Below, one piece after another: positions 31,554 through 47,477 of a DNA stretch of 64,000 bases. The DNA is taken from assembly GCA_944389895.1 (NCBI GenBank), contig CALXOA010000066.1, positions 1-64,000 on the forward strand, written 5' to 3'. Position numbers and translations under genes: made by a program. The DNA comes from an uncultured Victivallis sp. (GTDB lineage Bacteria > Verrucomicrobiota > Lentisphaeria > Victivallales > Victivallaceae). Within the stretch, counting starts at the first letter, position 1. Every line of letters begins with the position of its first letter. The notes below the pieces were generated by a model. The model made no database searches. It saw only the letters and a list, made by a program, of their open reading frames with translations, and was not told the origin of the DNA.

Positions 31554-33257
31554 TCATTTCTTTCCGGGATCGAGCAGATACTGATTGAAGAAATGGCGAT
31601 TACCGTTGCCGGCGTCGGCGACGTCGGCCTTTATCCCGTCGATGCGTCTGATGCTGCCGCCGTCCGGAACCGATTCCGGGTAGACGTATTGGCATTCGGC
31701 GACGAGTACGAGCCGGGAGTTCCGGGAGGACTCCGATTCGGTCTGGAAGAGATAGCCGAGCAGCGGAATATCCTTCAGGAAGGGAACCCCGGTGGACCCG
31801 CGCACGATCTCCCGCTTTTCGAGTCCACCGATCACAAATCGGTTTCTTCTGGTGGAGATCATCACCTTGTTGGTGACGGTGTTTCCCTTCTGGATCCGGG
31901 GGGCTCCGCTGGACTGATAGCCGATCAGGGAGGAGTTTTCAAGCGTAAGCTCGAGCAATGCGGCTTCCGGAGTGATGGACAGTGCTTTCACCGTCATTGT
32001 GAAACCGAAGGAATCCGGGTTGCGGGTGACGAGCTCCTGATTGTCCTTGCCGATCACGATGTCGTTTCCAGCACTCTCTTCATCGAAGGCGTCCAGAATG
32101 GAGGAAAAGGCTCTGGCGAACCATCCGTCGGGCTGTTCGGTGGTATCCTCGGCGGGAACCGTTGTGTCCATGTAGAAGATTTCCATCATCCGTTTCAGAG
32201 TACTGGTGGAGTTCTGGCGGACGGTGACCTCTCCGGAGTGGGCGATCTTTGCTTTCCCTCTGGAGGTCAGGAAATCGAGGTAACGTGTGTTCCACTTCGG
32301 ATTGAAATTGTAGAAACTCGTCCGCTCGGTTCCCTGTGCCCGGTCCATGGTACCGCCGTAGGTGGCCGCCCAGTTGTCGCGGAAGCGGGCTCCGGCGCTG
32401 AAGAGGTCGGTCCCGGCATTGTTTTTCCACGCCTGAAAGTCGAGGCCGAGTTTGTCATCATTCTCATCGTAAAGTTCATACACATCGAATTTCAGCTTGA
32501 TCTCCGGCATCGGCCGATCGTATTTCGCAAGCATCTCCTCGATGTTTTTCCGCGAGTAACTGGCGGTGTTGAAGAAGAGGCAGTTCAAGTCCGGATCCTG
32601 CTTCACCTTGTCTTTGCCTCCGGTCAATTCCGTCGTGTCGCCGGAGACATTCATCCCCACGTTCCTGATCATCGGCAGCAGAATTTCCGCGGGTACGTTT
32701 GCCGGGAAGTAGACATACTTCGGCTGTCCGGAACTATGCAGGATACCCGGTTGATCGAGCCGCTTCACGATGGAATCGATTCCCATACCGGTTGCCTGAT
32801 CGTGGAACCGGTACTCTTCCGCGGAGATGAAAAGCATCGCAGTTCCGTCTTCGAACTTGATTGTCTCCACAGCCGTATTGCTTCCGAATACCCGGCGGGT
32901 CTGGACCATCTCGCGCAGAAACGTCCGCAAAGCATAGGGTTCCGCATGTTTGAGCACATAGGTCTTTGTCACCACTCGGGGGTCGTTGTTGTCACGAATG
33001 AAATGGACGGCATCGGTATCCTTATCGAGATCGAGCCGGAGTTGAGCCTGCACCTGGGAATCCATATAGCCGGCGGTATCGTTGTTGTTCTCATCGCGTG
33101 GAATCCCGGGCGACGGCAGACTGGTTGTTTGCGTATCAACTTTGCCGGATAAGAGATTCTGCATGTAGTAGGGTGAAGTTGAGGAATCTCCGGGCGCGGC
33201 GAAGAGCGGCAGCGTGACAGCTCCGGCGAGTGGAAGGAGAAATGTTTTTCTGATCAT
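31554..33257 (-). CDS. Secretin-like protein A (type II/III secretin C-terminal domain)
   Basis: 567 residues with a Sec signal peptide (RKTFLLPLAGAVTLPLFAAP). Two or three N-type ring domains precede a secretin-like C-terminal half; the hallmark GVPFLKDIPLLGYLF is near residues 490-504, after NRFVIGGLEKREIV. The last 63 residues (to DPGKK) lie beyond it. Such proteins form outer-membrane gates of type II, type IV pilus or phage systems. It is shorter than GspD/PilQ and lacks the TPR-like N-terminus of the large secretins at 42-47 kb. It follows secretin-like protein B by 49 bases on the same strand, so the two probably act together. No ATPase, platform protein or other gsp gene is adjacent. 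Confidence 0.8.
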   Translation of the reverse strand: MIRKTFLLPLAGAVTLPLFAAPGDSSTSPYYMQNLLSGKVDTQTTSLPSPGIPRDENNNDTAGYMDSQVQAQLRLDLDKDTDAVHFIRDNNDPRVVTKTYVLKHAEPYALRTFLREMVQTRRVFGSNTAVETIKFEDGTAMLFISAEEYRFHDQATGMGIDSIVKRLDQPGILHSSGQPKYVYFPANVPAEILLPMIRNVGMNVSGDTTELTGGKDKVKQDPDLNCLFFNTASYSRKNIEEMLAKYDRPMPEIKLKFDVYELYDENDDKLGLDFQAWKNNAGTDLFSAGARFRDNWAATYGGTMDRAQGTERTSFYNFNPKWNTRYLDFLTSRGKAKIAHSGEVTVRQNSTSTLKRMMEIFYMDTTVPAEDTTEQPDGWFARAFSSILDAFDEESAGNDIVIGKDNQELVTRNPDSFGFTMTVKALSITPEAALLELTLENSSLIGYQSSGAPRIQKGNTVTNKVMISTRRNRFVIGGLEKREIVRGSTGVPFLKDIPLLGYLFQTESESSRNSRLVLVAECQYVYPESVPDGGSIRRIDGIKADVADAGNGNRHFFNQYLLDPGKK

Positions 33258-33306: not shown

Positions 33307-34827
33307 TCAATTGCTGGTAACGGCCGTCGTGACCGGCTGGATCTCATCGAAGGCACGAAGCTGTCCGCCAAAGGTCGGCGGCAGACTCTCAGGATGGGCC
33401 AGGACGGTACGGGCGGTTACGAAGAACCAGCTTTTTTCCCGATTGGTGGTTGTGGTGGAAAAGAGGTAGCCGAGAATCGGAATCTCCGATAGGAAGGGCA
33501 CTCCGATGGTCTGCTCCACGTCGCTCTCCTTGCTCCATGCGGTCAGGATTTTTTCCTCTTCGGACAGCAGATTGCAGATCCCGGTGACGGAACTTACTTC
33601 AGCGAGTTCCGCTCCGTAGTTGTTCCGTTCCACCACGTTGGAAACCTGAATGGTATATTGGAATGTGACCAGCGCCTTGAGAACCGTGTTGTAGTCGGCG
33701 CACGCGTCCGGCAACAGACCGGTTGAGGTCGCGGCTGGCCCGCGCAGGCAGATGCGCGGCGCGGTAATCCGCAGTGCCAGCGGCGGCGGAGGTGTCGCCG
33801 CATTGAGCAGTGGATCCTCTGCTCCCGTGGCGGATTCCGGTTGATTGATGCCGCCGGACATGCCGACACCGGAAACTCCCACCTGGAGCTGGTCGTTGTC
33901 ACGCTTGAAGATCGCCTGGGACTGTGGCGCAAAACCGATGGAATAGCTCGCCGTGTCGCTGTTGACCATGGTCAGGCTGGCGGTGTTGGCGATGCTGGCC
34001 CGTCCATCCTGCTGGAGAAGCCGGATGAAACTCGCATCGAACTGCGGCGCGAAGAAAAAACCGCCGAAGGCATTGCTGGCCGCCTGAACCGCCGCACTGC
34101 CGGCTGACGAGAGGCTCATCGCGTCAAATCCGACGGAGAACAGGTTCAGTGCCGGACCGTTTCGCCAGCTGAGATAGTCGACCCCGAGGTCGCGCAGTTC
34201 GCTTTCGCGAACCTCGTAGACGGTCAGGGCCAGGTTGACCATTGGAATCGGGCGGTCAAGCCAGGCGAGATATTTCAACAGGTCGTTGTTCTTGTTGATG
34301 TCGTCTTTCCAGTAGATCATGTTGGTATCCGGGTCGTGGGTGATGAAGGAATCTCCCCCCGCGTTGATCCCTGTTCCCTCCATGATGTCGACCATCGTCT
34401 GCGCCGATCGGAACCGGGCGGGATAGACTGTCCGGACAATGCCTGTGCCGCGGATCGGATCGCCGGGGTTCCGGCCGACGACTCTCGAGGGGCGGTCGAG
34501 CTTTGCGATCATCTCGTCCACATAGGGCATCATGCCGACCGGACAGCTGACGGTCAGCAACTGTTGATTCCCCGCCTTGTAATTGATCCGATTCACCGTC
34601 GACTGGGCGTTGTAGCGCTTGACCACGCCGAGGACGAACGGGGTCACATCATTCGCCTTCAGATATTTAAGCTCATAGACCTTTGAAACCATGTAGTCCT
34701 GGGCGTCATCCTGAATCAGATGAATGGTGCGGACGTTTTCCGATTTCTGCGCCGTGTTGCCGGCCGCCGGTGCTGCGAGGGGAAGGATCATGGCTCCCAG
34801 CGTGAATGTGATGAGTTTTCGATACAT
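33307..34827 (-). CDS. Secretin-like protein B (type II/III secretin C-terminal domain)
   Basis: 506 residues, with a signal peptide (MYRKLITFTLGAMILPLAAPAAG). N-terminal modules contain VYELKYLKANDVTPFVLG and VRTVYPARFRSAQTMVDIMEG, the secretin N1/N2-like folds. GVPFLSEIPILGYLF near residues 442-456 is followed by REKSWFFVTARTVLAHPE. The centre has an unusual Pro/Ala/Ser-rich insert (AATPPPPLALRI, ATSTGLLPDACADY). It is a diverged paralogue of protein A downstream, and the first gene of the pair. The start ATG 34827 follows AAAGGA on the minus strand. Divergently, 226 bases away, is a small lipoprotein that could be its pilotin (inference). Confidence 0.8.
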   Translation of the reverse strand: MYRKLITFTLGAMILPLAAPAAGNTAQKSENVRTIHLIQDDAQDYMVSKVYELKYLKANDVTPFVLGVVKRYNAQSTVNRINYKAGNQQLLTVSCPVGMMPYVDEMIAKLDRPSRVVGRNPGDPIRGTGIVRTVYPARFRSAQTMVDIMEGTGINAGGDSFITHDPDTNMIYWKDDINKNNDLLKYLAWLDRPIPMVNLALTVYEVRESELRDLGVDYLSWRNGPALNLFSVGFDAMSLSSAGSAAVQAASNAFGGFFFAPQFDASFIRLLQQDGRASIANTASLTMVNSDTASYSIGFAPQSQAIFKRDNDQLQVGVSGVGMSGGINQPESATGAEDPLLNAATPPPPLALRITAPRICLRGPAATSTGLLPDACADYNTVLKALVTFQYTIQVSNVVERNNYGAELAEVSSVTGICNLLSEEEKILTAWSKESDVEQTIGVPFLSEIPILGYLFSTTTTNREKSWFFVTARTVLAHPESLPPTFGGQLRAFDEIQPVTTAVTSN

Positions 34828-36419: not shown

Positions 36420-36448
36420 TTGACTTTTCCGGTGCCCGGCGCTAATAT
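36420..36448 (+). promoter_or_regulatory. Promoter ahead of secG and the pilus-like operon
   Basis: TTGACT (36420-36425), 17-bp spacer, TAATAT (36443-36448) in TAATATTATC. I find no comparable promoter between secG and the six genes that follow. Confidence 0.6.
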
Positions 36449-36527
36449 TATCAATGAATTATTGCGGATCGGTGGGGCGTGGTGCTTCCTCTCATCGATC
36501 GATACAAGTAAAAAAGGGTATATTTTG

Positions 36528-36917
36528 ATGGCTACTTTGACCGTGTTTTTGTATGCGCTGGTCGTTGTCGTTGCGTTGCTGCTGATCGGGATTATCATGA
36601 TCCAGCCTTCCAAAAGCGGCGGCATGGGGGCGGCTTTCGGCGGAATCGGGGAATCGGTATTCGGCGGGCAGGCCGGCAGTCATTTGACCAAGGCGACAGT
36701 GGTGATGACGGCGGTCTTTTTTGTTTTGACGCTGATCCTTGCCTCGCTGATCGGTCACGGAGTCAGCGTCAATGCTGTTGATACCGGAGTGAGGGCTCAA
36801 CTTGAGGAGGCCGCGGAGAAGGCTGTTCCAGCGGCGCCAGAGGGAAGCTCTGAGGCTGTTCCAGCGGCTCCTGCTTCGAAGGATGGCAAGGCTGAGGCGG
36901 CTCCGGTTCAGAAGTAA
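36528..36917 (+). CDS. secG: Preprotein translocase subunit SecG
   Basis: 129-residue inner-membrane subunit of SecYEG. Two helices (residues about 4-26 and 53-76) flank the conserved cytosolic loop IIMIQPSKSGGMGAAFGG with SVFGGQAG, which is the SecG signature. The C-terminal tail of about 45 residues is Ala/Pro/Glu-rich and low in complexity, commonly seen in this phylum. ATG 36528 follows AAGGG; the homologous region begins there. It stands at the head of a run that encodes a pilus-like envelope complex, all of whose secreted parts would pass through Sec. Confidence 0.92.
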   Translation: MATLTVFLYALVVVVALLLIGIIMIQPSKSGGMGAAFGGIGESVFGGQAGSHLTKATVVMTAVFFVLTLILASLIGHGVSVNAVDTGVRAQLEEAAEKAVPAAPEGSSEAVPAAPASKDGKAEAAPVQK

Positions 36918-36949
36918 TTTGCAGGGAAACCAGAATTCAGGTGTCCGGA

Positions 36950-37627
36950 ATGGGTAAAAAAATCGGTGTGCTGCTCGGCTTCCTGCTTGCGGTGGTGGCG
37001 ATGGCTGCTCCGGATGACAACATGATCTTTACCAGGATGAAGATCTCGTTATCATCCAAGGGGGCACCCACCGATCGGTCTGAAAGCGCTTTTTACAGCA
37101 GTGGTTCCGTGCGCAACAAGTGGGCGGTGTTCACGATTGATTACGTTCCCCAGATTCCCGAGGGTAACCGCGGCGGCAACCGGGCAAGTGCCTGGATCGA
37201 CGGCGTGATCTTGAAATTGACCGTCGCCTTCGATGGCGTCAGCGGAGGGCGGCAGATACTCTGTGTCTTTACCGGGGAGACCCGTTTCTGGTCAATTCCG
37301 CTCGACGGCCGCAAGCGGCATGAGGTGATGGCGATTCCCGCCCATCTGCTGGATCGCTATCTTCCGGTTTCAGGTACCTCCAGTACATTTGGCTCCAATA
37401 CCTTCAATGCGGAGGCCGTTTTCATGGATCGCGGAGGCCGGGTGATCGGGCGTGCATTTTATGCCCCGCGGATGTCGGATGCCGATGCGATGCAGTTTTT
37501 CGAGGCGGTCAGCCGGACCCAGCAGAAGCTGGTGGTTGAAAATGGTGTGTTCGATCGCAGCAGCACTCCCTGGCGTGATCGGAATGTGGACACGTTTGAC
37601 CTGATTAAGCCGAACAAAGTGAAGTAG
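36950..37627 (+). CDS. Amuc_1102-like pilus-associated protein
   Basis: 225 residues with a signal peptide (KKIGVLLGFLLAVVAMAAP). The mature part is beta-rich: IFTRMKISLSSKGAP, KWAVFTIDYVPQIPEG, ILKLTVAFDG, FWSIPLDGRKRHEVMAIPAHLLDRYLP. The call rests on its length, its export signal and its place immediately upstream of a PilM-like gene, as Amuc_1102 lies next to Amuc_1101 in Akkermansia; I cannot confirm homology by alignment here. Its role in that system is not well established. Start ATG 36950 with AGG upstream is preferred over GTG 36941. It is separated from secG by 32 bases. Confidence 0.65.
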   Translation: MGKKIGVLLGFLLAVVAMAAPDDNMIFTRMKISLSSKGAPTDRSESAFYSSGSVRNKWAVFTIDYVPQIPEGNRGGNRASAWIDGVILKLTVAFDGVSGGRQILCVFTGETRFWSIPLDGRKRHEVMAIPAHLLDRYLPVSGTSSTFGSNTFNAEAVFMDRGGRVIGRAFYAPRMSDADAMQFFEAVSRTQQKLVVENGVFDRSSTPWRDRNVDTFDLIKPNKVK

Positions 37628-37690
37628 TTTTATTTTTTTGATAGAGAATTGCCGGACTTGCCCCGGCAGGATAAAGCGGAACAATCAACG

Positions 37691-39505
37691 ATGGCAAAAG
37701 AAAACACGGTTTTGACGATCGACGTCGGCGGGGATAATCTGAAGATGGCGGAATTTGCCTTCCCCGCCGGCGGCGCGATTGAGCTGCGGGCATTTGCATT
37801 CCGCAAGCTGGAGATGGAAGAGGAAAATCCGGGTATCGCTTTCGCCCATGCTTACCGTGAGATGATTGCTGAAAACGGCTTCACCGCCAAGCGGGTCCGG
37901 CTTTCGCTTTCCGGCCAGTCTTCCTTCTCGCGTCTGAGCAAGTTGCCTCCGCTGATGGGCGGCAAGGGTGCGAGCCGCATTGTCGAATTTGAGGCCCGTC
38001 AGACGGTGCCGTACCCGATGAATGAAGTGGTCTGGGACTACCAGCTGATTCGTCACACCTGGGAGGAGCACCGGGTGGAAACGCAGGAGGACGGGAGTAC
38101 TCTTGAGATCGACGATACCCACGAGGAGTATGAGGCGCTGTTCGTTGCGGTCAAGAATGATCAGATTACCTGTTACACTGATGTGATCCAGGATTCCGGC
38201 AAGGACATTGTCTCCGTGGAGATTGCGCCGGTTGCATTGTTCAATGCCGCCAAGGGCGGCGGGCAGTGCCGCGATGATGAATGCGTGTTGCTGCTGAACA
38301 TCGGCGGACAAGGCTCCAACCTGATGATTGCCGACCATAATCGCGCGTTCATCCGCAGTATTCCGATCGCCGGTGATTCGATTACGCATCAGGTGGCGAA
38401 AGAGTTCGGCATCGGCTTTGCCGAGGCTGAGGAGTTGAAACATCGCCACGGTTTCGTTGCGCTTGGTGGAGCCTACGAAGAGCCTGAGTCGGAAGTCGCG
38501 GCCACAATCTCCAAGATCGCCCGGAATGTGATGACCCGGCTTCACGGCGAAGTCAGCCGTTCGATCAACGTCTGGCGTGCCCAGCACGGAGGGAATGCCC
38601 CGACGCGTGTGTTGCTCTCCGGCGGTGGTTCGACCATGCTCTACATCACGGATTTCTTCCATGAGAAGTTGCGGGTTCCCGTGGCTTATCTGAATACTTT
38701 CGGTGCGATTCAGATTGCTCCGGCGGTCGACAAGGAAGCGCTCCAGGCGGTTGCTCCGATGTTTCAGGAGTTGATCGGGATGAGTCTGCGCGATGTGACG
38801 CAGTGCCCGATTGATATTTCGTTGATTCCGCGTTCGATTCGCAAACAGAAGGAGTTGAACCGGAAGAAGCCGTATTTCTACATTTCGGCGTTTTCGTTGA
38901 TCGTCTGTCTGTTGATTTTCTCGGTGGGGGTGCACAAACGGTTGAATTTCGATAAATCGCGTGTGGAGCGTGTCCGAGTCCGGGTGGATGAAACAACCCG
39001 GAAGATGGACGAGGTCAACCGGTTGATGAGCTCTTTCAATGTGGCCAAAGGTCGTTATGATGAAGCTATGGCCTTTTTGAAGAGCCGCAGTGTCTGGACG
39101 GATATGCTCACAGAGCTGCAGAGTCTGATCCCGGATAAGATGTGGCTGACGACGGTGGAGGGGTATGATGAGAATGCCGCGGCCGCGGCCTCCGGGGGAG
39201 AGGCTGCTCCCGGAGGACCGTTTGGTCCTTTCGGAGGACCTCCCGAGGCGAACGCTGATGTTTCCGATACCGCGATTCCGGATCTTACGGAAGTTCAGCA
39301 GCTCCGCCTGGTCGGCTATACGATGGTGATCGACGGCAATGATCTTCTTGAGACCAAGTTCCGGAACAAGCTCAAAACTTCGAAGTTTTTTTCCTCTGAG
39401 GAAGATGGTTCAGTGCAGCTGAAATATGTGCCGGACAAGCCCGGTTTGTTCAACCTCACTTCCTTTGAGATGCTGGTCAAGCTCAAGGAGCCGATTAAGA
39501 AATAG
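37691..39505 (+). CDS. pilM: PilM-PilN-like fusion (Amuc_1101-like)
   Basis: 604 residues. Residues 1-365 are an actin-like PilM domain: VLTIDVGGDNLKMAEF (phosphate 1), VRLSLSGQSSFSRL, RIVEFEARQTVPYP with VVWDYQLI, LLLNIGGQGSNLMI, and VLLSGGGSTMLYI (adenosine loop). A membrane helix at about 394-415 follows, then a coiled coil (VRVRVDETTRKMDEVNRLM) and a periplasmic PilN-like domain with a Gly/Pro-rich insert (GGEAAPGGPFGPFGGPP). In classical type IV pili PilM and PilN are separate proteins linking the cytosol to the secretin. The fusion fits the Amuc_1101 position in the Akkermansia locus. ATG 37691 is the family start. A gene for a PilB/PilT ATPase is not nearby. Confidence 0.85.
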   Translation: MAKENTVLTIDVGGDNLKMAEFAFPAGGAIELRAFAFRKLEMEEENPGIAFAHAYREMIAENGFTAKRVRLSLSGQSSFSRLSKLPPLMGGKGASRIVEFEARQTVPYPMNEVVWDYQLIRHTWEEHRVETQEDGSTLEIDDTHEEYEALFVAVKNDQITCYTDVIQDSGKDIVSVEIAPVALFNAAKGGGQCRDDECVLLLNIGGQGSNLMIADHNRAFIRSIPIAGDSITHQVAKEFGIGFAEAEELKHRHGFVALGGAYEEPESEVAATISKIARNVMTRLHGEVSRSINVWRAQHGGNAPTRVLLSGGGSTMLYITDFFHEKLRVPVAYLNTFGAIQIAPAVDKEALQAVAPMFQELIGMSLRDVTQCPIDISLIPRSIRKQKELNRKKPYFYISAFSLIVCLLIFSVGVHKRLNFDKSRVERVRVRVDETTRKMDEVNRLMSSFNVAKGRYDEAMAFLKSRSVWTDMLTELQSLIPDKMWLTTVEGYDENAAAAASGGEAAPGGPFGPFGGPPEANADVSDTAIPDLTEVQQLRLVGYTMVIDGNDLLETKFRNKLKTSKFFSSEEDGSVQLKYVPDKPGLFNLTSFEMLVKLKEPIKK

Positions 39506-39521
39506 AGTACGGAGAACGACA

Positions 39522-40934
39522 GTGAATCGACTGATAAAACACAATATCCTGCTGATCCTGGTGGTCAGTCTTTCGGTGATTGCAGCGTGTGTGCTTCTGG
39601 TCTGGATTGCGATGGAGCACTCGGAGATGTCGGGTTACATGAAGGAAACCGATACTCTGCGCACCAAGATCAAGGAATTGATTGAAAAAACTCCGGCTCC
39701 GGTTGAGGGGAACAAGGCTCCGATCCAATTCAATACCCGGCTTTATGCCAGGGCCGCAGATGAATTGGAGAAGCATTTCGGGCATCCGCTGCAGGATGCT
39801 CTTGTGAAGTTCATTGAAACGATCCGGCTGCGTGAGCCGCGTGACGGCAAGAATACGATTACACTGGAGCAGTTCCGGCAGGAGTTCCGCGAAGGGTGGG
39901 GTAACGGAGAAAGGAATAACGCCCAACAGGGACTTTTCTACAAGGAGTTTCAGCGGAAGTTTGTCAACTGGGCAGACGCCATGCGTGAGTTCAGTAACGT
40001 CGCCAAGACAGTGACGCTGGAGCCGATCTCCGAGTTCACTATCGACGATATTTTCCGTTCCGCGCTGGGGTTGGAGCGGATGTTGCCTGATGAAGGGCAG
40101 GCGGAGACTGTTTCACGCTTTGTGATGGATTACCGCAGCAAGCTGATGGAGACGCTCGGAAATAAAGTTACGGTTTCCCCGCAGGCGGCGAATTTTTCAT
40201 TTGACATCGCAAGTTTCGACAAGGAGAACACCGGCGGTACCCCCGCACCGGGTGGTTTCGGCGGTTTCGGCGGCTTCGGTGGTGGAGAGGCGGCTGCTTC
40301 ATCGGGAGTGACCGTGGCTGACTATACCTTGATTGCCAAGCACCTTGATGTCATTGGTGAAATCATGCAGCACCTGCTCAGTTCGGGCGTCAAGGAATTG
40401 ACTATGTTCCGCAAACGCAGTCTGGCCGGAGAGACGGTGGGGAATTATCTGGTGTTTCACTACTCGTTTGAGGTGGTCGGGACGATGGAAAGCATCCGCA
40501 AGCTGGTGAAGTCTCTTGATGAAGGATTCCGGAAGAACCGGCTTTTTGTGGTCAGAAGCGTTTTCCTTTATGCGATGAGCGATCCGGCCAGGGAGCTGTT
40601 TGAACCCGAAGCATTGACAGGAGAGAGTGAAGATGACAATACCCGGGTGCGGGCGCGCCAGGGGCGGGGGCGTCGTGGTCAGATGATGAATCCGATGATG
40701 CAGCCCGGAATGATGGGGCCGGGAATGGTGGCTCCGGGGGCGTTTGGCGGGGTTCAGGAGTCGGAAGAGGAGATGCGTGCCCGCGAGGCAGCTGAGCTTC
40801 AGGCGCGGATAGAGCGGGAGAAGAAGCTGCCCATGAATGAACGGACAGGCTATGGCAAAGTGATTATCGGCGGAGATAAAAGTGTCCGCGCTCTGATCGA
40901 CGTGGATTATGTGATGCAGAATACGACGAATTAG
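39522..40934 (+). CDS. Amuc_1100-like pilus-locus protein
   Basis: 470 residues. One N-terminal helix (residues 8-30, LLILVVSLSVIAACVLLVWIA), then a coiled coil (YMKETDTLRTKIKELIEK) and a periplasmic domain with PilO-like strands near residues 270-350 (YTLIAKHLDVIGEIMQHLL, VGNYLVFHYSFEVVGTM split). There are low-complexity inserts: GGFGGFGGFGGG near 245 and a Met/Pro/Gly-rich stretch (MMNPMMQPGMMGPGM) near 388. The bitopic layout is that of PilO and of Akkermansia Amuc_1100, which acts on host TLR2; this version is about 150 residues longer. It starts at GTG 39522, fixed by GGAG seven bases upstream. It lies between PilM-PilN and the Amuc_1099-like gene, the same order as in Akkermansia. Confidence 0.72.
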   Translation: MNRLIKHNILLILVVSLSVIAACVLLVWIAMEHSEMSGYMKETDTLRTKIKELIEKTPAPVEGNKAPIQFNTRLYARAADELEKHFGHPLQDALVKFIETIRLREPRDGKNTITLEQFRQEFREGWGNGERNNAQQGLFYKEFQRKFVNWADAMREFSNVAKTVTLEPISEFTIDDIFRSALGLERMLPDEGQAETVSRFVMDYRSKLMETLGNKVTVSPQAANFSFDIASFDKENTGGTPAPGGFGGFGGFGGGEAAASSGVTVADYTLIAKHLDVIGEIMQHLLSSGVKELTMFRKRSLAGETVGNYLVFHYSFEVVGTMESIRKLVKSLDEGFRKNRLFVVRSVFLYAMSDPARELFEPEALTGESEDDNTRVRARQGRGRRGQMMNPMMQPGMMGPGMVAPGAFGGVQESEEEMRAREAAELQARIEREKKLPMNERTGYGKVIIGGDKSVRALIDVDYVMQNTTN

Positions 40935-40955
40935 TGAACGGCACGGAGGTTCATT

Positions 40956-42254
40956 TTGGAATTTTTGAAGCGACATTACGAAAAGTTGATTCTGCTGATA
41001 TTGCTGCTTGTATTTATTCTGTCGATGATTTACGTGCTGCGGATTATTCAGCAGACCGGTGAGATCACCGAGGCGAGCCTTCAGATTCCGACGCGGGAGG
41101 CCGATGTCAAGAAGGAAGATCCCAAGGCGCCGTATTTCAATGTGGCGAAAATTTACGAAGGAACGGCGTTGCGTTGGGTTGCGAACGGGCCGCGTGAGAA
41201 GGGTAGTTCCCCGAAAGCTTCTTCGGATCTGGTTCAGGCGTTCGAGATGGCGCGGTGTCCCAATGCGAATTGCAAGATGATCATTCCCCGTGAGATTTTT
41301 TCCGGTCAGAAATGCCCTTTTTGCGGGCTTGAGCTGCCGACTCCGAATGTAAAAGAGGAGCAGAGACCGGTCGGAAGTGCGGGGGACCTTGACGGTGATG
41401 GTCTGGGGAACGACGAAGAGACGAAGTTCGGCCTGGATCCGCGGAATCCCTATGATGCGCGTCTGGACAATGACGGTGATGGATTCTCGAATATTTTCGA
41501 GATCAAGAATAACTTTGATCCGAACAACGTGCACAACCATCCGCCGTTCTGGTTCCGGCTTTATTTGAGAGAGATCGCCCGGGTACCGCTTCCGATTTCA
41601 TTCAAGTCTTTGAACACCAACGGAACGGAAGATCAGAGCAAATGGTTGTTCCAAATCAACCGCACCCGTAGAAATCGACCGGATGCGACTGAGCTTCTCG
41701 GCCTCGGCGAGACGCTTTTCCTCGGGGAAAATATGACGGGCAAGGAGTATAAGATCGTCAAGGTTGTGCTGAAACGTACGGAGACTCCGTCGAAAAACAA
41801 GGATGGGTCCCCGGTCTATGATGACAAGTCCGAACTCTACCTGGAGGAGGTCGGCGGCAATGATAAGATCACGATGGTGATCAATAAGACTGTTTACTCC
41901 TCGGATAAAAAAGCGATTCTGATCGATACTGGAGACGACAATGCCGAGCTTTATGTCGACGTGAATGATGAGTTTCGTCTGGATGCGATTGATCGGCGGT
42001 TGCGTCCCCGTTCGGAGAGTTATCGGGTCAAAGCCATTGATCCGGAAGCCAAGACCGTGTTGCTGGAGGATCCTTCGAAATTCGAAGGGGATACCACCGT
42101 GGATAAGCTGAATAACAAGATGCTGATCGATGTCAACGGCAAGGTTCCGGAAGATATGCGGATCAAGGTCGTTGAGGGCGGAGGTTTCCCGATGGGAATG
42201 CCGGGGGAATATCCTGGTGCGATGCCGGTTGTTCCCCGCGGGCGTGGCAGGTAA
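40956..42254 (+). CDS. Amuc_1099-like protein with zinc ribbon and calcium-type repeats
   Basis: 432 residues. Helix at residues 10-29 (LILLILLLVFILSMIYVL); a four-Cys zinc-ribbon-like knuckle near 100-125 (CPNANC ... CPFC); then two TSP3/calcium-type repeats at 145-190 (DLDGDGLGNDEE, DNDGDGFSNIFE) with FGLDPRNPYD between; then a beta-rich C-terminal half (TLFLGENMTGKEYKIVKVV, KAILIDTGDDNAELYVDV) and a Pro/Gly/Arg tail. It begins at a TTG codon (40956), chosen because GGAGG lies six bases upstream and the membrane helix follows. It is probably an inner-membrane-anchored periplasmic part of the secretin complex, PilP-like in position. The combination of modules is unusual. Confidence 0.7.
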   Translation: MEFLKRHYEKLILLILLLVFILSMIYVLRIIQQTGEITEASLQIPTREADVKKEDPKAPYFNVAKIYEGTALRWVANGPREKGSSPKASSDLVQAFEMARCPNANCKMIIPREIFSGQKCPFCGLELPTPNVKEEQRPVGSAGDLDGDGLGNDEETKFGLDPRNPYDARLDNDGDGFSNIFEIKNNFDPNNVHNHPPFWFRLYLREIARVPLPISFKSLNTNGTEDQSKWLFQINRTRRNRPDATELLGLGETLFLGENMTGKEYKIVKVVLKRTETPSKNKDGSPVYDDKSELYLEEVGGNDKITMVINKTVYSSDKKAILIDTGDDNAELYVDVNDEFRLDAIDRRLRPRSESYRVKAIDPEAKTVLLEDPSKFEGDTTVDKLNNKMLIDVNGKVPEDMRIKVVEGGGFPMGMPGEYPGAMPVVPRGRGR

Positions 42255-42311
42255 ATTGTATGTACGGATGCATTTTTGAATACAGATCAATAAACAAGGT
42301 AGAAGAAGAGC

Positions 42312-44891
42312 ATGGAAATCTCTAACCGGAAGCTTTTTTCTCGGGGAATGGCTGCGATCAGTCTGCTGGTCGCGGTTTCCGGAACCGCCGCCGAGACGCT
42401 GGCTGTAACGGAATCGGAGGATGCTGCGGCCAACCGGCTGGCGGCTTATCTCGATGACCGTACCGACCTTTCAATCAAGGAAGCCGAGCAACGCCGTGAG
42501 CGTTACGTCGCCCAGGACAAGAAGCTGGAGGAAGCCCGTAAACTTCGTTCCGAGGAGAAGTTTGCAGAGGCGGTGAAAATTTACGAAGAGATCATCTTCG
42601 ACCTTGACAAAGAGCTCGCCGTCTCCGAAAGTGTGGTTGCAAGGAGTCGTCGGAATGCTCTGGCGCAGGAGAACAGTGAGACGCGCGGAGAGTGGGGGCG
42701 GGCGTTGCTGAAGCGTGCCGAACGCGCTTTGATAGACGGTCGTTACAGCGATACGATTTCGCTTGCCACCGATGTGCAGAATGCGGATCCCGCGGCCAAG
42801 GATGAGGCGACGGAGCTGGTCGAGGAAGCCCGTGCCAGACAGCGTGCCGAGGAGGCGGCAAATGCGGTGAAACTTTCCACCTTTGATCCGAAAGTGGAAC
42901 AGAATCTTGAAATGATCAAGAAACTGCTGGCCGAGGCGGAGACGTTCTATCAGAACCGGAAGTTCGAGGAGGCCAGGAATCGGCTGGAACGGGTTTATCT
43001 GCTCGATCCCTACAATGTCAAAGCCATTGCGATGATGGGGGATATTTACAGGCAGTTCTATACCTATGGGCTCCACAGGCATCTGGCCGATACCGAAGGG
43101 ATGGTGGCCTTTGCGGATTGGCAGTGGGCCGAGCCGGTGTTTGTTGTCAATCTCGATGCTCAGCAGGTTCCGCAGGGGGAGGTTCGGACGGTTGAGAAAC
43201 AGGGAATCGCCGCCAAGCTGGATCGTATCATTTTCCCGAGTATCGCATTCGATGATGCGGACATCATGGCGGTGATCCGCTTCCTGAATTCACGCAGTAA
43301 GGTATTCGATCCGGACAAGGAGGGGGTGCGGGTGTCCGCCGGTCTGGATGCCGCCGCTCGTGATTCGATCAACCGGTTGACGTTGAATCTGCCGGCCCCG
43401 TTGCCGATGAGTGATGTGATCCGGTATGTTTGTCAGTATACCGGGCTCAAGAGTCGCATTGACGCCGATGGAGTGTTTCTTGCTCCTGAAGTGGCGCGTA
43501 TGCAATATCGCATTTTCCAGGTTCGCGGCGATTTGATTTCACAGATTCCCGAAGGTGGGGATGTGGATAATGCAATGGGAGGAGGCGCTCCCATTGATAT
43601 GCCCGTTGAGGCTCCGCGTGTGGGCGGCGGTGGCGGCGGTGGCGGTGGAGAAGGCGATGACGGCTTCCTTTCCGGCCCAGGTGGCCGCAAACGGAGCATT
43701 TCCGATGCGGCTTTGATGCGGTTCTTCGAGTCCCTGGGGATTGAGTTCCCTCCCGGATCTTCCATCACTTATAATGTGCGCGGAGGAAAGTTGACTGTGC
43801 AGAATACCGCCGAGAACCTGACTTTGCTCGATGATGCGTTGCGGCGGCTCGATGCCGGGACCAAACCGATGATCATGGTTGAGATCAAGGCGATTGAAAT
43901 TTCCCAGACCGATGTTCAGGAGCTTGGATTTGACTGGTCTCTTTACAATCTCGGTTCCAACATGGGCAGCGATGGAACTCTGATTGATGAAAGCAAGAAC
44001 GGCTGGATTTTCGGCCAGGGAGCAAACCGGCTTCCTGTGATTCGGGGTGGTACGGGGGAAAGTTCCACCAGTACCGGCACTGAAAGCAGCGGTGGGTCTT
44101 CATTGATCAACGGGTTGAATATTTTTCCGGCACTGTTCGGTTCCCGGCATCCCTTCGGTTCGGACCTGCCGTTGAACATCACTCTTTCGGTCAATGCATT
44201 GAGTCAGAGTACCAGAGCGGAGACGCTTTCTGCACCCAAATTGCTGACGGTCAATGATAAGGATGCGACGATCGACATGGTGAAAACCTATTGGTTCCCC
44301 CAGAGCTGGGATGAGTACGAGATCGAGGATGATGACAATGGTGCTCGTACATTGACGGCTCCTGTCCCGGACTTCAGCGAGGATGGGGAGGACATCGGTG
44401 TCAAATTCAAGGTTCGGGCCAGGATTAAAGCCGATAACTACACGATCAATTTGAAAGTCACTCCGGAAGTGACAAATTATATCGGACGCGACACCTATTC
44501 GATGACTGTCAGCGGTGAATTGCGCAGTTATCAGCCGGTTACCAATCCGGTGCCGGGTGGACCGACCACGCAGCTTGTGGTCACTCCGACCACGGATATC
44601 TTCGAGGTCTGGAAGCCGATCATCACCAAGCGCAAGCTGGATGTCAACGTCGATGTGTATGACGGTGAAACGATTGTTCTCGGCGGCATGATCGACAACA
44701 AGACCACCACGCGAACCGATAAATGGCCGATCCTGGGCGATCTGCCGTTGATCGGGCGTTTCTTCCAGTCGCAGGCTGAGGATACGGAGCGGACGAACCT
44801 TCTGCTCTTCGTCACTGCGCGTCTGGTGAATAACGACGGTATTCCGATCCGACGCAACAAGCAGGACGGGTCGCCGGAATTCAATCGGTAA
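42312..44891 (+). CDS. Large secretin, Amuc_1098-like (copy 1)
   Basis: 859 residues with a signal peptide. Residues 55-240 are alpha-helical TPR-like repeats (EARKLRSEEKFAEAVKIYEE, QNRKFEEARNRLERVYLLDP). N-type domains follow, then a Gly linker (VGGGGGGGGGEGDD, near 440), and the secretin domain: IMVEIKAIEISQTDVQELGFDW, AETLSAPKLLTVNDKDATI, DVYDGETIVLGGMI and PILGDLPLIGRFFQSQ near residue 810, ending LLLFVTARLV. It would form an outer-membrane ring. The TPR-like head and pairing with PilM/Amuc_1099-1100-like genes match the Amuc_1098 family of type IV pilus outer-membrane proteins. It is followed 25 bases later by a second, diverged copy. Confidence 0.88.
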   Translation: MEISNRKLFSRGMAAISLLVAVSGTAAETLAVTESEDAAANRLAAYLDDRTDLSIKEAEQRRERYVAQDKKLEEARKLRSEEKFAEAVKIYEEIIFDLDKELAVSESVVARSRRNALAQENSETRGEWGRALLKRAERALIDGRYSDTISLATDVQNADPAAKDEATELVEEARARQRAEEAANAVKLSTFDPKVEQNLEMIKKLLAEAETFYQNRKFEEARNRLERVYLLDPYNVKAIAMMGDIYRQFYTYGLHRHLADTEGMVAFADWQWAEPVFVVNLDAQQVPQGEVRTVEKQGIAAKLDRIIFPSIAFDDADIMAVIRFLNSRSKVFDPDKEGVRVSAGLDAAARDSINRLTLNLPAPLPMSDVIRYVCQYTGLKSRIDADGVFLAPEVARMQYRIFQVRGDLISQIPEGGDVDNAMGGGAPIDMPVEAPRVGGGGGGGGGEGDDGFLSGPGGRKRSISDAALMRFFESLGIEFPPGSSITYNVRGGKLTVQNTAENLTLLDDALRRLDAGTKPMIMVEIKAIEISQTDVQELGFDWSLYNLGSNMGSDGTLIDESKNGWIFGQGANRLPVIRGGTGESSTSTGTESSGGSSLINGLNIFPALFGSRHPFGSDLPLNITLSVNALSQSTRAETLSAPKLLTVNDKDATIDMVKTYWFPQSWDEYEIEDDDNGARTLTAPVPDFSEDGEDIGVKFKVRARIKADNYTINLKVTPEVTNYIGRDTYSMTVSGELRSYQPVTNPVPGGPTTQLVVTPTTDIFEVWKPIITKRKLDVNVDVYDGETIVLGGMIDNKTTTRTDKWPILGDLPLIGRFFQSQAEDTERTNLLLFVTARLVNNDGIPIRRNKQDGSPEFNR

Positions 44892-44916
44892 ATACTAACG
44901 CCGGAGGCTGAAAAAT

Positions 44917-47427
44917 ATGTTGAACAGAGAGACTGGGGTGCTTCTTGGATTTGCTGTTGCGCTCGGCGTTGGATTGACGCCCGCGACTGCAGCCGATTCG
45001 GCGTCCGAAGTAACCGGGCAGATTCGGGAGGCGATCAACCGCGCCGATCAGGGGATGCAGGAGATTGAGCGCAACGCGACGCTGCTGGTCGAGAAAGCGA
45101 ATCAATTGCTGATCGACGGCAAATACTTCGAGGCGAGAGATAAATATCTCGAAGCGATCAAGGCTTTTGAAAAATTCAATTCCGCCGTATTCAAGGCGAA
45201 GATAGAACAGTGTCGCCAGCAGATCAGTCGCTGCTACGCCTACAAGGCGGAGGAGGCGATCCTGCAGGCCGACCGTTATGCCCGGGCCCGCGATTTTGAA
45301 GAGGCGATCAAGGTCTGCAAGGAAGCGATCGAGTATTATCCCGAGGGCGCCTCAAAACTTCAGGCAAAGATTGCCGAGTATGAAAAGAATCAGGCGCGGT
45401 TGCTGACCCAGTCGGAGAGTTCAACCGAAAAGCTGTTGCCCAGCAAGAGTTCGCAGGACTATCAGATTCAGGTTCTGATGGAGCAGGGGATCCAGCTCGA
45501 ATCGGTTTCCGAATACGGCAAGGCGTTGCGGAAGTTTGAAGAGATCCTGTTGATAGATCCTTTCAATGCCGAGGCGTTGCACAACATTCGAGCGATTCAC
45601 AGGCGCGTTTCCAAGGCCGGCTTGAAGCGTTACGGTGACATGCATCGTCGGACTATGGCGGAGGTGGAATGGAAATACGCAATCCCGATTGTGCCGGAGG
45701 GGAACAGTTCTGCTGCGGTCAATATGATTGACAATCTGCCGAAAGTGAAAGTCGAACAGGAGCTCACTCCCTTCCAGAAGAAACTCAAGAGTATCATTTT
45801 GCCCCGTGTGGCGTTTGAAGATGTTTCCGTTACTGCCGCGGTGAACAACCTGCGAGAGCAGAGCCGTCGTCAGGATCCGGAACGGGTCGGGGTGAACATT
45901 CTGGTTTTGCCGAGTAATGTTGGTCAAAGGCTGGCGCAGGAAGCTGCCAATGATGCAATGGGAGGTATGGTGGATCCTAACCAGCAGTTCCCCGGTATGC
46001 AACCTCCGGGGGTGCAGGTGCCCGGGCAGCAGCGGTTTCCCCGTCAGCAGCCGGGAGCAGAGGGTACGGGAGAGGTGATTTCTCCCGATGACCAGCCGGT
46101 CTCGCTCTCCATCGAGAACAGTTCTCTGCTCGACATCATCGAGAAACTTTGTGACACCGCGAAGCTTGAGTATGTGATCGACGATCATGCTGTGATCATT
46201 GCTCCCAAGGGCGTTTCTCTGCAGAACATGGTGACCAAGTGGCTGCCGGTGGATGAGAGTCCCGTGGATGATCCGAATCGTCCCGGCGCGCTTCAGGAGT
46301 TCTTTGAGAAACAGGGAGTCTCCTTCCCGGTCGGAGCAAGAATTGGTTACAGCGCCACCATCAATACGCTGGTGGTTACCAATACCGCAGCCAATATCCG
46401 GAAGATTGAAGAAATCATTCATACTGTGCTGGATCGGCAGGAGCCGATGATCCAGATCATGGCGAAGTATATTGAAATTTCTCAGAATGACCTCAAGGAG
46501 CTGGCTTTCAACTATCAGCTCTCCGTGAATAACCAGGCGCAGAACGACTCTACTGATGTCTATTATACTGCTGACGGTGAATTACGCCGTTCCGTTGTGA
46601 TGAAGGAAAATTCCAATGAGTTGATGCGATATTATGTTGACGATGAGGGCAGTGCTTCGACAACTGCACGCGATCCGCTCTCTGACGGGACTTTCTCGCT
46701 GGCCTGGCAGAATGCCGACGGTACCCGGATCGTTGCGAGCATGTTCGCTTTGAATTATGCTGACAGCGCCGATGTGCTGGGGTCGCCGCGGGTGGTAACC
46801 ATTCCCGGGCAGGCAGCACGTGTGGAAATGGTTACCCAGCGTTATTATCCGTCAGACTGGAACGTTATCGACATCGATATGGACAGCGGCAGCGATGGCG
46901 ACAGCGACAGCGAAACGATTACCCGGTGGCGGGCGATCAGTGCCGATCCCCAGCCGAATCTTGAGAATCAGCAGGATACCGGTATCACTTTTGAAATCAC
47001 TCCGTACCTGGATGATCCTGAGCGTCGGTTGATTTCCGCACAGGTTGTATTGCCGATCAAAACCTTCTCCGGCTGGATGGAGTTTGATGCGCGTACGTAT
47101 GACAGTGACGGTGAGGTCGATGGTGAGTACTATAAGATGCCGATTTTCGACTTCCGCAAAATCGACACGAACATCAGCCTCTATGATGGAGAGACGATCG
47201 TTCTCGGCGGTGTGGCGTCGGATCAGGTGGAAACCGTTGATGACAAGATTCCGATTCTCGGAGATCTGCCGCTGATCGGGCGGTTCTTCCAGTCCAAGTA
47301 CACCAACTCCGAAAAACGTAACATTCTGGTGTTTCTGACCTGCCGGCTGGTCAAGCCGGATGGCTCAGCGTTCTATCCGGACGAGGATCGTTCGCGCGGG
47401 TTGCCGGAATTCAGCCGGAATCGCTAG
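44917..47427 (+). CDS. Large secretin, Amuc_1098-like (copy 2)
   Basis: 836 residues, same plan as the preceding gene: signal peptide, helical repeats at about 45-245 (YFEARDKYLEAIKAFEKF, ARARDFEEAIKVCKEAIEYY), N-type domains, a Pro/Gln/Gly-rich linker (QQFPGMQPPGVQVPGQQ) and the secretin domain with MIQIMAKYIEISQNDLKELAF, ADVLGSPRVVTIPGQ, LYDGETIVLGGVA and PILGDLPLIGRFFQSK near 785. An acidic Asp/Ser tract (MDSGSDGDSDSE) is unique to this copy. It is the last gene of the operon, ending at a perfect-stem terminator. Two full-length secretins in tandem may form mixed rings or serve different substrates (inference). Confidence 0.88.
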   Translation: MLNRETGVLLGFAVALGVGLTPATAADSASEVTGQIREAINRADQGMQEIERNATLLVEKANQLLIDGKYFEARDKYLEAIKAFEKFNSAVFKAKIEQCRQQISRCYAYKAEEAILQADRYARARDFEEAIKVCKEAIEYYPEGASKLQAKIAEYEKNQARLLTQSESSTEKLLPSKSSQDYQIQVLMEQGIQLESVSEYGKALRKFEEILLIDPFNAEALHNIRAIHRRVSKAGLKRYGDMHRRTMAEVEWKYAIPIVPEGNSSAAVNMIDNLPKVKVEQELTPFQKKLKSIILPRVAFEDVSVTAAVNNLREQSRRQDPERVGVNILVLPSNVGQRLAQEAANDAMGGMVDPNQQFPGMQPPGVQVPGQQRFPRQQPGAEGTGEVISPDDQPVSLSIENSSLLDIIEKLCDTAKLEYVIDDHAVIIAPKGVSLQNMVTKWLPVDESPVDDPNRPGALQEFFEKQGVSFPVGARIGYSATINTLVVTNTAANIRKIEEIIHTVLDRQEPMIQIMAKYIEISQNDLKELAFNYQLSVNNQAQNDSTDVYYTADGELRRSVVMKENSNELMRYYVDDEGSASTTARDPLSDGTFSLAWQNADGTRIVASMFALNYADSADVLGSPRVVTIPGQAARVEMVTQRYYPSDWNVIDIDMDSGSDGDSDSETITRWRAISADPQPNLENQQDTGITFEITPYLDDPERRLISAQVVLPIKTFSGWMEFDARTYDSDGEVDGEYYKMPIFDFRKIDTNISLYDGETIVLGGVASDQVETVDDKIPILGDLPLIGRFFQSKYTNSEKRNILVFLTCRLVKPDGSAFYPDEDRSRGLPEFSRNR

Positions 47428-47444
47428 AAATCGATTGTGCTTTC

Positions 47445-47477
47445 GGCCGGAAGTTTTTAGAAACTTCCGGCCTTTTT
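47445..47477 (+). terminator. Terminator of the pilus-like operon
   Basis: GGCCGGAAGTTT (47445-47456) pairs perfectly with AAACTTCCGGCC (47461-47472) around TTAG, followed by five T. Confidence 0.92.

Follow-up and report, generated by a model that had tools for sequence, protein, structure and literature searches.

Gene content and transcription of the locus

A window of 64,000 nucleotides from an uncultured Victivallis sp., part of contig C66 (CALXOA010000066.1) in a genome of 3.76 Mb and 131 contigs, carries a gene cluster related to the Amuc_1098-1102 (MUL2) locus of Akkermansia, which is best read as part of a type IV pilus and in which two complete secretin genes stand in tandem. Open reading frame calls and profile searches give the order secG, an Amuc_1102-like gene, a PilM-PilN fusion (Amuc_1101), Amuc_1100-like and Amuc_1099-like genes, secretin and secretin, with tpiA in front of the locus and rpsD behind it. 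Its features, in which HMM stands for profile hidden Markov model, are as follows.

36420..36448, forward strand: candidate sigma-70-type promoter, TTGACT-N17-TAATAT, between tpiA and secG, within a stretch that is conserved among seven aligned Victivallis loci
36528..36917, forward strand: secG, which encodes a preprotein translocase subunit and opens the unit, with an ATG start (TIGR00810 E 1.9e-17, PF03840 E 9.9e-17)
36941..37627, forward strand: homologue of Amuc_1102 (MUL2A), exported (order-only HMM and family profile)
37691..39505, forward strand: PilM-PilN fusion of the Amuc_1101 family (NF045709 E 2.3e-118, PF11104 PilM_2 E 5e-21)
39522..40934, forward strand: Amuc_1100 homologue with one N-terminal membrane segment, periplasmic (NF038287 E 1e-8)
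40956..42254, forward strand: Amuc_1099 homologue (NF042425 65.7 bits, cut-off 50)
42312..44891, forward strand: secretin 1, with a TPR domain, N-domains, a long Gly-rich linker and a complete secretin barrel (NF042912 E 5e-87, PF00263 E 4.7e-32)
44917..47427, forward strand: secretin 2, of the same architecture, with a long linker rich in Pro and Gln inside the first N-domain and a short second linker (NF042912 E 8e-88, PF00263 E 5.3e-25)
47445..47472, forward strand: perfect intrinsic terminator of 12 pairs followed by T5, positioned as in most relatives of the order

The gene order and coordinates given by the initial annotation of this DNA hold, apart from its use of 36420 as a gene start, which is where the promoter begins and not secG. 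The start of the Amuc_1100-like gene is probably the GTG at 39522. The genes of the unit are separated by gaps of 17-63 bases, which are short in nearly all relatives as well; inside the unit no strong terminator was detected. Both boxes of the candidate promoter, -35-like and -10-like, fall in the conserved block of the gap between tpiA and secG, and in most of the examined loci of the order the second secretin is followed by a hairpin and a run of T. The locus is thus probably a single transcription unit, as had been proposed from its one front promoter and one end terminator.

The gene at the head of this unit needs separate consideration. secG adjoins the locus in families f1, f2 (in most members) and f4; in f3, f5 and the remainder of the class it does not occur in the region fetched. 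It is therefore not part of the ancestral locus but belongs to a tpiA-secG pair, a common housekeeping arrangement, that is linked to the locus in some families but not in others. The translocase gene does head the locus here, as initially described, but leading the operon is confined to three families of the order and is no trait of the locus itself.

The window holds two further, shorter secretin-like genes on the reverse strand (31554-33257 and 33307-34827; PF00263 57 and 36 bits), which lack the TPR domain, directly neighbour each other, are oriented divergently from tpiA, and are present as a pair in 5 of the 7 Victivallis loci. The initial description of two secretins in tandem was correct but overlooked this pair, with which the window total comes to four secretin-family genes.

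Relationship to the Akkermansia locus

HMMs were built from genomes of the Victivallis order alone, with no Akkermansia sequence, and these matched the Akkermansia proteins Amuc_1102 (E 1e-10), Amuc_1101 (E 3e-105), Amuc_1100 (E 1.6e-7) and Amuc_1099 (E 2.7e-20), the Akkermansia locus itself (L097) being confirmed by NCBIfam for 1099-1102. The secretins were matched to the Amuc_1098-type family through NF042912. Family profiles also matched PDB 6lad (Amuc_1100, E 5.6e-52) and PDB 7dsz (Amuc_1102, E 1.2e-39), but contain one Akkermansia row and so are not independent. Searched alone, the Amuc_1102-like protein gave no NCBIfam match. The NCBIfam equivalog cut-off was reached by the Amuc_1099 homologue only (65.7 of 50), with the Amuc_1101 (397 of 650) and Amuc_1100 (35 of 180) homologues and the secretins (293 and 295 of 750) below theirs. 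By sequence and by NCBIfam curation, the proteins of the locus are distant homologues of Amuc_1098-1102 and not equivalogs. The resemblance to Amuc_1098-1102 that was first noticed is thus borne out by gene order and by Akkermansia-free profiles, and profile searches of the kind proposed at that time find a match for all the small proteins, that of the Amuc_1102-like protein through the order-only HMM.

The two loci share five families, encoded on one strand in the order 1102, 1101 (PilM-PilN), 1100, 1099 and 1098 secretin. Victivallis differs in its two tandem secretins, in secG in front, in longer 1100- and 1099-like proteins and in a zinc-ribbon-like motif in the latter. This Amuc_1099-like protein (40956-42254, forward strand) carries the C4 zinc-ribbon-like motif together with TSP3-like acidic repeats; the motif is also found in many class members and is absent from the Akkermansia protein shown.

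Distribution and history of the secretin pair

A match to the Amuc_1101 (PilM-PilN) family was found in 116 of the 119 class genomes sampled, and the synteny check in relatives that had been suggested for this locus shows the core order kept in nearly all of 79 fetched loci. The cultured strain V. vadensis DSM 14823 carries the locus as well. Both secretins are intact in every locus of the order that is uncut by a contig end (52/52; 39/39 in a first set and 13/13 in a second), and in all of these loci the two genes are neighbours that follow a single set of inner-membrane genes. Some second secretins that look short, in metagenome-assembled genomes from goat rumen (L053, L116, L118), are not truncated copies, since these genes stop at contig ends.

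Elsewhere in the class the locus usually has a single secretin. Outside the order, tandem secretins occur in family f9 (three in G146, G147 and G151, two in G154), in two genomes of other classes (two each in G078 and G125) and in named Verrucomicrobiota contigs (L127, L132), and these copies arose separately in a few lineages. In f9, a family of the class, three tandem Amuc_1098-type secretins stand behind one pilus gene set (L079, L221, L222).

In phylogenies of these proteins the first secretins of the order form one clade and the second another, with mirrored branching (FastTree, and IQ-TREE with a mixture model, where both clades have support 100), and in the IQ-TREE tree the two clades group together against all other secretins (96). 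This grouping fits a single duplication at the base of the order, and one such duplication, never lost since, is the most likely history. A duplication before the order split from the rest of the class, followed by losses, is less likely, though the approximately unbiased test does not reject it (p 0.18 and 0.12). The paralogues are approximately 28% identical within a genome, and their mean identity to the single-copy secretins of the class is nearly equal, at 0.295 for the first copy and 0.304 for the second, so that on these values neither copy is clearly the original. The second secretin had initially been taken as new here and as the diverged one of the two; its presence beside the first throughout the uncut loci of the order speaks against the former, and the similar distance of both copies from their single-copy relatives against the latter.

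Structure, selection and linkers

Both copies appear to be working genes. The ratio of nonsynonymous to synonymous substitution rates (dN/dS) in close genome pairs is 0.04-0.19 for secretin 1 and 0.05-0.21 for secretin 2, like that of pilMN, and judged on these ratios both are under purifying selection. PF00263 is covered at nearly full length in each, and the AlphaFold2 model of each protein shows a TPR superhelix along with N-domains and a complete secretin with its long strands, in agreement with the initial view that both are full length. These models are of monomers (pTM 0.34) and inform on domain architecture rather than on rings. The best PDB match of both predicted folds in Foldseek is the type IV pilus secretin PilQ of V. 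cholerae (6w6m).

The core motifs are equal in the two proteins and the difference between them lies in two linkers, A in the first N-domain and B before the last. In single-copy secretins of the class, linker A is long (median 79) and linker B is of middle size (median 43). In secretin 1, A is short (median 34) and B is long and Gly-rich (median 66), and in secretin 2 the pattern is reversed, with a long A (median 74) and a short B (median 24); the median sum of A and B is 101 in both. Linker B is longer in secretin 1 in 39/39 pairs (p 5e-8) and linker A is longer in secretin 2 in 34/39 (p 4e-5). The Gly versus Pro/Gln contrast first noticed in this genome is therefore part of a pattern fixed across the order.

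A probable pilus and its candidate motor genes

The initial annotation had reported no ATPase, PilC or prepilin peptidase, which is accurate for the window but not for the genome, where all are found on other contigs. PilB1-PilB2-PilC lie behind thiI on contig C27, the best PilB score being 670.9 against a TIGR02538 cut-off of 675.65, and the genome further contains three prepilin peptidases (PF01478 matches) and six PilT-family domains (TIGR01420) over cut-off. A single PilM-type gene was found in the genome, namely the PilM-PilN fusion of the pilus locus. The two PilB-type ATPases, in tandem with PilC (L137:10175-13677, reverse strand), are different from one another. We considered a link between the secretin duplication and this tandem PilB pair and dropped it, as the pair is found across the class. 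Two single reading frames, on contigs C80 (L146:4928-7102, forward strand, 724 aa) and C44 (L148:6134-8413, reverse strand, 759 aa), have two PilT-family ATPase domains each, all of which exceed the cut-off, and on contig C52 two such domains lie side by side in separate frames.

Compared with the type IVa PilMNOPQ complex, the Victivallis system is alike in its PilQ-like secretins, in the actin-like PilM domain that is joined to a PilN-like part, and in the presence of PilB, PilC and PilT in the genome. It differs in that PilM and PilN are one protein, in that the secretin begins with a TPR domain and in having two secretins; the 1100- and 1099-like proteins fit the topology and place of PilO and PilP, although 1100, 1099 and 1102 have no detectable PilO or PilP sequence match. 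With the type II secretion system (T2SS) it shares the secretin superfamily, and two GspD/GspE/GspF sets are present on other contigs of the genome, but the partners encoded in the window are of PilM type rather than GspL/GspC type and its secretins belong with Amuc_1098.

These observations suggest that a pilus is the best reading of the locus. We propose that the operon would encode those components of a type IV pilus that span the envelope, the pilus being of the Amuc_1098-1102 (MUL2) type of Verrucomicrobiota. In this arrangement PilM-PilN would be located at the inner membrane, the periplasm would be bridged by the 1100- and 1099-like proteins in roles analogous to those of PilO and PilP, the 1102-like protein would be exported, and the outer-membrane gate would be a PilQ-type secretin. 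The motor parts (PilB1-PilB2-PilC, PilT and prepilin peptidase) would be supplied from elsewhere in the genome.

One channel or two

The partial correlation between the divergence of secretin 1 and that of secretin 2 is 0.74 given PilMN distance (35 genomes) and 0.67 given all four other operon proteins. GspD, the T2SS secretin, which shares the secretin fold but serves a different machine, gave partial correlations of 0.19 with secretin 1 and 0.16 with secretin 2 (16 genomes). This co-divergence favours joint work of both secretins in one machine, without showing contact. We consider that, after the secretin gene was duplicated in the order, both copies may have become indispensable partners of one machine, most likely as one joint mixed-subunit channel to which the two types would supply complementary N-domain linkers. 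As a whole, this explanation, a MUL2-type pilus with two secretins in one joint and most likely mixed channel, has in our estimate a probability of about 0.5. Its most specific part, namely that both subunit types share the barrel of one hetero-oligomeric ring in the outer membrane, with linkers that complement each other, and that this arrangement was fixed at the base of the order, is more tentative and falls somewhat short of even odds.

Several points weigh against a joint channel. The tandem PilB1-PilB2 pair gives a partial correlation nearly as high (0.67, 21 genomes), and correlated divergence could also come from two separate channels serving one pilus. A residue search between the two secretin clades returned only one consistently different position (A/G), and so no interface-specific positions. 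The solved secretin rings that we know of are homo-oligomers.

The strongest alternative is that the two secretins form separate homomeric rings on one inner-membrane platform and are specialised, for instance with one as the pilus gate and the other as a gate for another filament or cargo. Reciprocal monophyly, the deep divergence of the paralogues, their differing linkers and the two PilB ATPases in the genome are all consistent with this. However, the PilB pair is class-wide, even with one secretin, and does not track the secretin duplication; there is a single PilMN, 1100 and 1099 set; and the strongly correlated divergence, together with linkers that are complementary rather than independently changed, fits separate rings less well. 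We regard this arrangement as possible but the less probable of the two.

The initial annotation raised the possibility of a non-retracting, signalling or secretion complex in place of a true pilus. Within the pilus unit of the window no pilin or motor gene was found, and Amuc_1100 of Akkermansia is known to signal to the host (PMC5332112), both of which would suit such a complex. It loses its main support through the PilB1-PilB2-PilC genes, prepilin peptidases and PilT domains on other contigs; in addition, both secretin folds are closest to PilQ, and in Akkermansiaceae the homologous locus has been described as encoding a type IV-like pilus system, for which glycan or mucin attachment and uptake are reported (PMC13174399). 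A non-pilus complex is therefore improbable. That the two genes are merely interchangeable copies is the least credible explanation, since adjacency in one unit and the rise of tandem copies in other lineages are set against the low identity of the pair, two old clades with no visible gene conversion and clade-specific linkers that have been kept.

Implications

The Victivallis locus represents a variant of a pilus locus already known, in which an old pair of secretin genes has been kept throughout and has co-diverged. If the joint channel that we favour is indeed a mixed ring, it would be, to our knowledge, the first natural mixed-subunit secretin, and the tandem secretins of other Verrucomicrobiota lineages would offer independent cases for the idea. 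A literature search on hetero-oligomeric secretins yielded no relevant report among 8 listed papers out of 53. Gut and environmental bacteria of one order that keep two secretins in one pilus operon provide a natural test of two-subunit rings. More broadly, the Amuc_1098-1102 locus, studied in Akkermansia for its host effects, is hereby extended to nearly the whole Victivallis class, and its core becomes open to study in another cultured gut bacterium, V. vadensis.

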